A DNA stretch of 64,000 nucleotides, from assembly GCA_003215695.1 (NCBI GenBank), contig QCJZ01000001.1:1-64000 (forward strand), given 5' to 3'. This document shows positions 5,322-8,491 of this stretch, in pieces. The notes beneath the pieces were generated by a model, which was given only the letters and a program-made list of their open reading frames with translations, was not told where the DNA came from and made no database searches. How positions within the stretch are numbered: position 1 is the stretch's first letter; every line of letters starts with the position of its first letter. The stretch comes from Prochlorococcus sp. AG-409-J03 (GTDB lineage Bacteria > Cyanobacteriota > Cyanobacteriia > PCC-6307 > Cyanobiaceae). The position numbers were made by a program, and so were the translations under genes.

Positions 5322-6356
5322 ATGACCCAGTGCTTATCGAGGTCTGACAAAAACAAGGCAACGAAAAAACTGAAGTCATTACGCGACTGGCAAAATGAGA
5401 TCCAAGAATATCTTGATCCTCCCAAGCCTTTAAACGTAACTTTGGGTCTTTTTTTTGGTGGATATTTTCTTGCAATAGTTACTGTTTGGCAGTGGTATCA
5501 AGGGAACTGGCCGTTACCAATTTTAGTTGCATTAGCTTTTTTAGCTCTTCATATGGAAGGCACCGTTATCCATGATGCCTGTCACAATGCTGCCCATCCA
5601 AATAAATGGATTAATCAATTCATGGGGCATGGGTCGGCGATATTATTAGGTTTTAGTTTCCCAGTTTTCACAAGAGTTCATCTAGAGCATCACAAATACG
5701 TTAATGACCCCAAAAACGACCCAGATCACATAGTTAGCACCTTTGGTCCTATTTGGTTAATTGCTCCAAGATTTTTTTATCATGAATATTTTTTCTTTGA
5801 ACGAAAACTCTGGAGAAAGTTTGAACTAATGCAATGGGGAATTGAAAGAGGAATATTTATTTGCATAATAATTGCAGGAATTAAATATAATTTTATGAAT
5901 GTTATTTATAATTTATGGTTCGGACCAGCATTAATGGTAGGAGTAACTTTAGGAATATTTTTTGATTATCTACCTCATAGACCTTTTCAATCTCGAAATA
6001 GATGGAAGAATGCAAGAGTTTATCCTAGTAAATTAATGAACTTGCTAATAATGGGACAAAATTATCATTTAGTTCATCATTTATGGCCCTCTATTCCTTG
6101 GTTTGAATACAAACCAGCTTACGAAGCTACAAAACCACTTTTAGATCAAAAAGGTTCACCTCAAAGAATGGGTATTTTTGAATCTAAAAAAGATAGTCTA
6201 AATTTTCTTTATGATGTTTTGATTGGTATTAGAAGTCACAAAGAAAGAAGAAGTAATATGAGGCCATTAGCAAGAATACTACCTAAAAACAATTGGAGAA
6301 GACAGTATATAAAATTAATTTATAAAACAAGAATCAGAACAGAAAGTCAAAGATAA
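5322..6356 (+). CDS. crtR: beta-carotene hydroxylase (di-iron fatty-acid-desaturase superfamily)
   Basis: 344 aa; His boxes HDACHNAAH, HLEHHKYVND, NYHLVHHLWP. Confidence 0.9.
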   Translation: MTQCLSRSDKNKATKKLKSLRDWQNEIQEYLDPPKPLNVTLGLFFGGYFLAIVTVWQWYQGNWPLPILVALAFLALHMEGTVIHDACHNAAHPNKWINQFMGHGSAILLGFSFPVFTRVHLEHHKYVNDPKNDPDHIVSTFGPIWLIAPRFFYHEYFFFERKLWRKFELMQWGIERGIFICIIIAGIKYNFMNVIYNLWFGPALMVGVTLGIFFDYLPHRPFQSRNRWKNARVYPSKLMNLLIMGQNYHLVHHLWPSIPWFEYKPAYEATKPLLDQKGSPQRMGIFESKKDSLNFLYDVLIGIRSHKERRSNMRPLARILPKNNWRRQYIKLIYKTRIRTESQR

Positions 6357-6365
6357 TTCTAATCT

Positions 6366-6653
6366 TTACAATATTTTGGGAACTCTAAAAAAATCACCTT
6401 CCCTATGGGGTGATTGATTGAGAATATCTTCTCTTGAGCAATTAACTTCAACTAAATCTTCTCTCATTGCATTAACCACCTCTACAGCTCTAGTAGTTGG
6501 AGGGATATTTTCAGTATCTATTTCTTGAAGTTGATCTACATACGAAAGTATTTCTTCGAGTTGCTTTGTGTAAGTTTCTATTTGATCTTCTGGAAGTTCT
6601 AAGCGAGCTAATTGGGCAACTTTACGAACATCAGATGAAGAAATTTTGGTCAT
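6366..6653 (-). CDS. gatC: aspartyl/glutamyl-tRNA amidotransferase subunit C
   Basis: 95 aa; [35 protein letters not shown] typical GatC. Confidence 0.95.
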
Positions 6654-6837
6654 TGTTATGTTAGAAAATTTTAAAGGTCTTTTGATAATGAGAAGTCAGA
6701 CTTATTAGTAAAGGATCTTAGTGCTTTAGATTGAAAAATAAGTTCTTTACCATTTTGCCATTTGAATGCAATATACGAAATCCTACGTGTTATAAATTCA
6801 TCCTCAAGATAGAGAAATCTATAATTTAGTAAGTAAG

Positions 6838-7475
6838 ATGAGTGGAAAGTATATACTAAGCCAATCTCAATTCTTACAAAAGAATTTTTCTCAAGGCCAT
6901 CTCATGTGGTCGCACCTGAATTAATCGGCTGTTTTTTAATTAAGCGCATATCAAGAAATAGCTCTCTTGCAGGAGCAATTATAGAAACCGAAGCATATTC
7001 TCAAGAAGAAGCATCATGCCATGGTTTCTCAGGAAGAACTCAAAGAAATAAAACCCTTTTTGGTGAACCTGGTAGTTTTTATATATACCGTTCTTATGGT
7101 ATTCATAATTGCGTAAATATTGTTACTGGAAAAAAAAATTGGGCAAATGGTGTACTTCTTCGCTCCATAGCAATAAAAGGAGAAAACGAGAAAATTGCTT
7201 CTGGGCCAGGGTTATTGGCAAAAAGGTTTGAATTAAATCAGAATTTTGACAATTTATCCTTATCCCCTGCAAATGATTTTTGGTTAACAGAAGGGGAGAG
7301 TTTAAAAAAAATGGGAACTATTGTTCAGACTACAAGAATTGGCATATCTCAAGCTAAAGATATACCTTGGCGTTGGTACCTTAAAAGTAGTAGAAGTGTT
7401 AGCAAAAGGGTTAAAGGAGATCGAATTCCTCCAAAAAACAAGTGTTGGGAACCATCGGCATTTGAGAGATTATGA
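6838..7475 (+). CDS. 3-methyladenine (alkyladenine) DNA glycosylase, AAG/MPG family; apparent frameshift near 6885-6889 or non-canonical start
   Basis: ORF 6906-7475 has [49 protein letters not shown]; conserved [16 protein letters not shown] lies in the same frame upstream of the GTG, whereas the only nearby ATG (6838) is in the adjacent frame. Confidence 0.85.
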
Positions 7476-8491
7476 ATAGTTGGAAACATAAGCACATTAT
7501 TGACCTTTCTACGTTTTCTTTAGAGGATTACAAAACAGTTTTAGAACTAACAAAAAGATTTAAAGATGTTCATAAGTCTAGTTCTAGAAAACTTCCAGCG
7601 CTTCAAGGCAGATTAATAGCCAACTTATTTTTCGAGCCAAGTACAAGAACTAGAACTAGCTTTGAACTTGCAGCAAAAAAACTATCTGCGGATGTTCAGA
7701 ATTTTTCTGTATCAACAAGTTCTCTCAGCAAAGGAGAGACTCCCTTAGACACTATTCTCACATACATCTCCATGGGGGCTGATATTTTAGTAATTAGGCA
7801 TGAGTCAACAAATGTTCCTGCGGAGTTATCTCATTACATAGACATAAACAACATCAATACATCCATACTCAATGCAGGTGATGGATTTCACAGCCATCCA
7901 AGTCAAGGTCTTTTAGATTTATTTACACTGGCTACTTTCTTTAATTCAAAAGAACCATCTACTAAAAGTCTTTTGAATAAAAAGATCACAATTGTTGGAG
8001 ATATTCTTCATTCTAGAGTTGCCAGATCGAACCTTTGGGCCCTAACTGCATGTGGAGCAGAGGTAACACTTTGCGGACCTCCTAGTCTGCTTCCTCAGGA
8101 ATTCCTGGATTTTGTTCAAAACCCTCCGCCAGGGCAAAAATTGGATCCTGTTAAGAAGAGAGGTTCTGTTTTCATCGAAAGATCACTTAAAAATGCATTA
8201 AAAAATAGTGATGCCGTTATTACACTTCGATTACAGAAAGAGAGAATGACGCAAAATATGCTTACAGATCTTGATAGTTACTATGCACAATATGGAATAA
8301 CACATGAAAGTTTAAAATGGTGTGAAAAGAAAATTCCTGTTTTACATCCTGGACCAGTCAATAGAGGAATAGAAATAAGCAGTCAATTAGTGGAAGATAA
8401 TTCAATCAATCTTATAAGTAAACAAGTAGAAAATGGGATCCCAACAAGAATGGCTTTGTTGTATTTACTAGGCTTAAATAAAAATAATTAA
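7472..8491 (+). CDS. pyrB: aspartate carbamoyltransferase catalytic subunit
   Basis: 339 aa; [26 protein letters not shown]. Confidence 0.97.

Follow-up and report, generated by a model that had tools for sequence, protein, structure and literature searches.

The AAG locus and its reading frame

The window analysed here is a stretch of 64,000 nucleotides (positions 1 to 64,000 of contig QCJZ01000001.1) from Prochlorococcus sp. AG-409-J03, whose genome assembly amounts to 910 kb in 67 contigs and is 55% complete. Between gatC, a divergent upstream neighbour on the minus strand (6366..6653), and pyrB, encoding aspartate carbamoyltransferase on the plus strand (7472..8491), the plus strand carries a gene for alkyladenine (3-methyladenine) DNA glycosylase, hereafter AAG. 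When only ATG, GTG and TTG are admitted as start codons, its longest open reading frame runs from the GTG at 6906..6908 to position 7475 and encodes 189 amino acids. As reported in the first-pass annotation, the frame remains open upstream of this GTG back to a TAA stop (6834..6836), and not a single ATG, GTG or TTG is found between that stop, which marks the upstream boundary of the frame, and a conserved N-terminal motif, FFSRPSH (6885..6905), containing a run of five T (6885-6889). The full coding sequence proposed here occupies 6864..7475 on the plus strand and would begin with an ATC codon (6864..6866) read as Met, yielding 203 amino acids up to the TGA stop at 7473-7475. This delimitation is based on the onset of sequence constraint, on the PF02245 profile and on the alignment with human AAG. 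The sequence ATGA (7472-7475) contains both the stop of AAG and the start of pyrB, and translation of pyrB may for this reason be coupled to that of AAG, with its presumably weak start.

The addition of the upstream in-frame segment raised the score of the PF02245 profile (Pur_DNA_glyco, AAG/MPG) from 157.8 to 164.8 bits and extended its coverage from positions 10-180 to positions 1-180 (of 181), the window protein exceeding the gathering cut-off of 27 bits over its full length. The alignment with human AAG (1F4R) begins at residue 4, counted from the ATC at 6864. Since both the score and the coverage rise and the human protein aligns across it, the upstream segment is real coding sequence, in agreement with the earlier proposal that the conserved N-terminus is encoded in frame ahead of GTG 6906. 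The region of the catalytic Glu, ETEAY, is present as well, the IIETEAY of the window being aligned to the IVETEAY of human AAG. Judged by this family match, the window gene encodes a normal, intact alkyladenine DNA glycosylase. It belongs to the same protein family as human AAG/MPG (1F4R, 1BNK), with which it shares the EFF N-terminal segment and the ETEAY catalytic region. The human gene differs in using a normal start, and the enzyme itself displays no oddity. A phage or viral origin of AAG was also considered and was rejected, as the viral contigs contained no related copy and the phage homologs were only distant.

The apparent frameshift in the N-terminus

The first-pass annotation had taken an ATG in the adjacent frame (6838..6840) for the natural start of AAG and had postulated a frameshift of one nucleotide, due to a sequencing indel, to phase variation or to slippage. 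The elements of this proposal are all present in the sequence: the ATG, the T run at 6885-6889, and the fact that one added base would join this ATG to the conserved frame. The fragmented and incomplete state of the assembly also speaks for an error or a recent loss of function. However, when the window was aligned with 14 relatives, the 120 columns contained zero gaps, also across 6885-6889, and the relatives share the frame of the window without any extra base. No base is therefore missing at the T run. Indeed, almost every AAG gene of the window's genus has the same frame, the same N-terminus or a near variant of it, and no canonical start upstream. Of the 31 genus genes that lack a canonical start, 19 have ATG and four have ATA at the place of ATG 6838; a stop often follows this triplet directly, and it is not conserved in other lineages. 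An indel of sequencing or assembly, or a recent inactivating frameshift in the window genome, with or without phase variation at the homopolymer, can be practically discounted in the face of these alignments. The impression of a frameshift results from the assumption that ATG 6838 is the start, and the supposed one-letter break is, on comparison with relatives, the normal, intact form of AAG in Prochlorococcus.

Programmed frameshifting or transcriptional slippage, by which translation would begin at an upstream ATG in another frame, calls for a conserved upstream start in that frame together with a conserved slippery site. In the window's genus, 12 of the 31 genes without a canonical start do have an ATG-led open frame overlapping the FF motif, and long A and T runs are located at the site in some genes of high-light Prochlorococcus. 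Such frames are nevertheless restricted to 2-3 of the 29 start-lacking genes from other AT-rich lineages and to none of the 20 high-light genomes, and the T run is not conserved within the window's genus, so that this combination of features was not found and the mechanism appears very improbable.

Relatives carry the sequence TAAGTAATATG upstream of AAG (6826-6840 in the window), and most of them have retained its TAATAT, also where the ATG has disappeared. Since it persists without that ATG, this TAATAT, which overlaps the place of ATG 6838 in the relatives, may be a -10 promoter element, in which case transcription would start downstream of that place.

The start codon in the window's genus

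The onset of constraint is sharply visible among 30 distinct AAG genes of the genus. The codons ahead of ATC 6864 are variable at each of their three positions, with stops further upstream; from ATC on, the third position varies, the first two being nearly fixed. The codon at 6864-6866 itself is ATC in 28 genes and ATT in two. The first-pass annotation had listed an ATT start among its options. Its notion of a non-canonical start is retained here, with ATC 6864-6866 as the codon in place of ATT, the in-frame ATT at 6870 being CTT in most relatives. The genes L027, L029 and L030 of this genus fit poorly to any of the start positions FF-7, FF-9 or FF-11 (in codons before the FF motif) described in this work.

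In the remainder of the AAG gene, ATC accounts for less than 4% of the Ile codons in this genus. This bias alone is no proof of a start, because TTC, AGG, TTG and GTC codons of the 5' region deviate from the usual pattern as well; more weight falls on the onset of constraint and on the lack of any alternative start than on the rarity of the codon. The first ~20 codons of AAG (6864-6920 in the window, and in relatives) are indeed unusually rich in codons ending in C or G, as though there were a constraint on the RNA sequence itself. A search for a conserved RNA structure at the AAG start gave nothing convincing (consensus of -3.3 kcal/mol; one pair with a two-sided change).

The codon at 6906, which is GTG in the window and mostly TTG or ATG in the genus, has to be weighed as a rival start, giving either a glycosylase without the conserved N-terminal segment or a shorter isoform beside the full-length one. 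It is an NTG codon in 28 of 33 genus genes, above the prediction from codon usage; 22 of the 25 Leu codons at this place are TTG, vs 11% TTG elsewhere in the gene, and an AAGG motif lies about nine bases before it. On the other side, the codon is ATT, ATA, CTT, CTA or TTA in the remaining 5 of 33 genes and mostly CTT in the high-light genus, so that the refuting condition named in the first-pass annotation for its frameshift, orthologs that all start at this place, does not hold. The segment upstream of it is moreover under amino-acid constraint and is part of the family fold. The use of 6906 as the start is on these grounds unlikely, and the codon is better described as an internal one for a conserved hydrophobic residue. 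As the NTG excess goes beyond codon usage, a shorter second product from this possible secondary start may still be made in the window's genus.

The start codon across the family

AAG loci were gathered from the genus and the family of the window, amounting to 160 distinct AAG genes. In 86 of these, the stretch from the upstream stop to the conserved FF motif contains no in-frame ATG, GTG or TTG, a possible canonical start being present in about half of the family. The control neighbours gatC and pyrB begin with ATG in 58/58 copies, some of these loci being duplicates of one genome.

In the genus taken, by its genome size and base composition, for high-light Prochlorococcus (g41; 20 genomes, several of them complete), the frame reads TGA AAA ATA GAA GAA ... 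TTT TTT. The stop lies two codons before the ATA in 15 of the 19 profiled genes. ATA occupies FF-9 in 19/20 genomes and FF-8 in the remaining one, and it is the sole ATH codon within the 14 codons preceding FF in 20/20. The first canonical start codon is located beyond the catalytic Glu in 15/20 genomes, and in 4/20 the entire frame contains none.

The same ATA is found at FF-9 in 21 of the 29 start-lacking genes from other AT-rich lineages. In this column, taken over the high-light and the other AT-rich start-lacking genes, 40 of 41 Ile codons are ATA, vs 37-43% elsewhere in the gene, a difference for which relatedness makes a formal p-value misleading. Among the start-lacking GC-rich genes of the marine Synechococcus type, ATC or ATT stands at FF-11 in 5/6, and the basal GC-rich lineages have mostly kept canonical candidates. 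A point against the start assignment is that the exact codon varies over the family, from ATC at FF-7 in the window's genus to ATA at FF-9 elsewhere and ATC/ATT at FF-11 in five GC-rich genes. On a tree of the 160 distinct proteins, the start-lacking state requires at least 16 changes, vs ~53 with shuffled labels, the count of true switches of start type being uncertain because many of these changes involve canonical triplets possibly present upstream by chance.

Proposed near-cognate initiation and known systems

Taken together, these data make it quite likely that a near-cognate codon overlooked by gene finders, ATC or ATA, serves as the start of AAG translation. Initiation would occur at ATC 6864-6866 in the window and at the ATA of FF-9 in high-light Prochlorococcus and in most other start-lacking AT-rich lineages. 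The ordinary initiator fMet-tRNA would form base pairs at the first and second positions of AUC or AUA, with a mismatch at the third. Direct observations are the reading frame and its conservation, the lack of canonical starts and the point at which constraint sets in; that ribosomes initiate at the ATC/ATA codon itself is what we infer from them. Since near-cognate starts are inefficient, the level of the glycosylase is probably low and might depend on conditions. An excess of glycosylase is harmful through unbalanced base-excision repair, and from this known harm the purpose of the weak start would be to limit glycosylase expression.

A strong Shine-Dalgarno sequence was looked for before the AAG start codon and was absent (median duplex energy near 0), as it is from most high-light genes; a rescue of the weak start by such a sequence was accordingly rejected for the AAG leaders.

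In Escherichia coli, near-cognate start codons are well known to limit some chromosomal genes. The infC gene starts at AUU and is autoregulated by IF3. A loop of this form was considered for AAG by analogy and was rejected, because infC begins with ATG in Prochlorococcus. The E. coli pcnB gene has an AUU start according to Binns and Masters (2002), as cited in PMC13009471. In Staphylococcus aureus, infC, ccpN and citZ start at AUA and cvfC1 at AUU (PMC13009471). Reporters with AUA or AUU starts attain about 10% of the AUG output in this species, and up to 30% in one medium; the near-cognate starts of ccpN and cvfC1 are conserved over genera or a genus, and infC, ccpN and cvfC1 possess extended Shine-Dalgarno motifs (PMC13009471).

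The resemblance of AAG to the S. aureus genes consists in the near-cognate AUH start, in this case deduced from sequence alone. AAG differs by the lack of an extended Shine-Dalgarno motif in its leaders, by a codon that shifts between lineages (ATA, ATC) and by its function as a DNA glycosylase. Two features of the near-cognate class are observed: 86/160 genes of the family offer no canonical start that would fit the conserved protein, the whole frame being devoid of one in 4/20 high-light genomes, and a conserved AUH codon stands at the onset of constraint (30/30 in the genus; 19/20 high-light and 21/29 other AT-rich genes at FF-9). The extended or strong Shine-Dalgarno sequence, which AAG lacks, is a trait of the S. 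aureus cases that lies outside the general definition of the class. AAG would in this respect be a further case of the kind already known from infC, pcnB and ccpN. A literature search that covered few subscription papers yielded no earlier description of a start of this type for Prochlorococcus.

Other candidates in Prochlorococcus

Further cases were sought by screening 414 reciprocal-best ORF pairs from two high-light genomes, using 400 kb of each, that is, a part of each genome. Among the 47 pairs flagged, AAG and crtR stood out, their conserved N-terminus preceding every canonical start in both genomes. The remaining pairs, mostly judged by eye from their sequences, were set aside as shadow ORFs of rRNA or other RNA genes, or as short conserved leaders ahead of a normal start.

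The crtR gene, encoding beta-carotene hydroxylase, lies two genes upstream of AAG in the window (5322-6356). Its start is ATG in the window's genus, and an ATG near codon -31 is present in most other lineages. In high-light Prochlorococcus (L265-L284), a canonical start ahead of the conserved region is missing from 19/20 genomes. The sequence reads GAA ACG ATT TCA AAC TTA, with a conserved ATT that is a candidate start of the high-light gene; in one genome (L270), ATG replaces the ACG.

The leader of a chlD-like gene in two high-light genomes (at G152:C1:286710-288944, within L239, and at G207:C1:277126-279330, within L258) has identical nucleotides for dozens of bases before a GTG/TTG start and is perhaps a conserved regulatory leader.

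A broader reading is that near-cognate ATH starts constitute a lasting, lineage-wide device of Prochlorococcus, applied to a small set of genes without the help of Shine-Dalgarno sequences and kept through the radiation of the group, AAG and crtR being the first two examples. This generalization is put forward tentatively, at slightly less than an even chance of being right.

Implications

Prochlorococcus is the most abundant photosynthetic cell of the ocean. Gene finders restricted to ATG, GTG and TTG must shorten or miss AAG in many genomes of Prochlorococcus and marine Synechococcus, and the repair repertoire and the protein N-termini of very abundant marine cells are therefore mis-stated. 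With AAG, the very short list of conserved AUH starts in bacteria would gain a DNA-repair gene that has no Shine-Dalgarno sequence and is conserved across many lineages of genus rank. The ATG, ATA and ATC versions of this one gene would also provide a natural comparative series on the persistence of weak starts.
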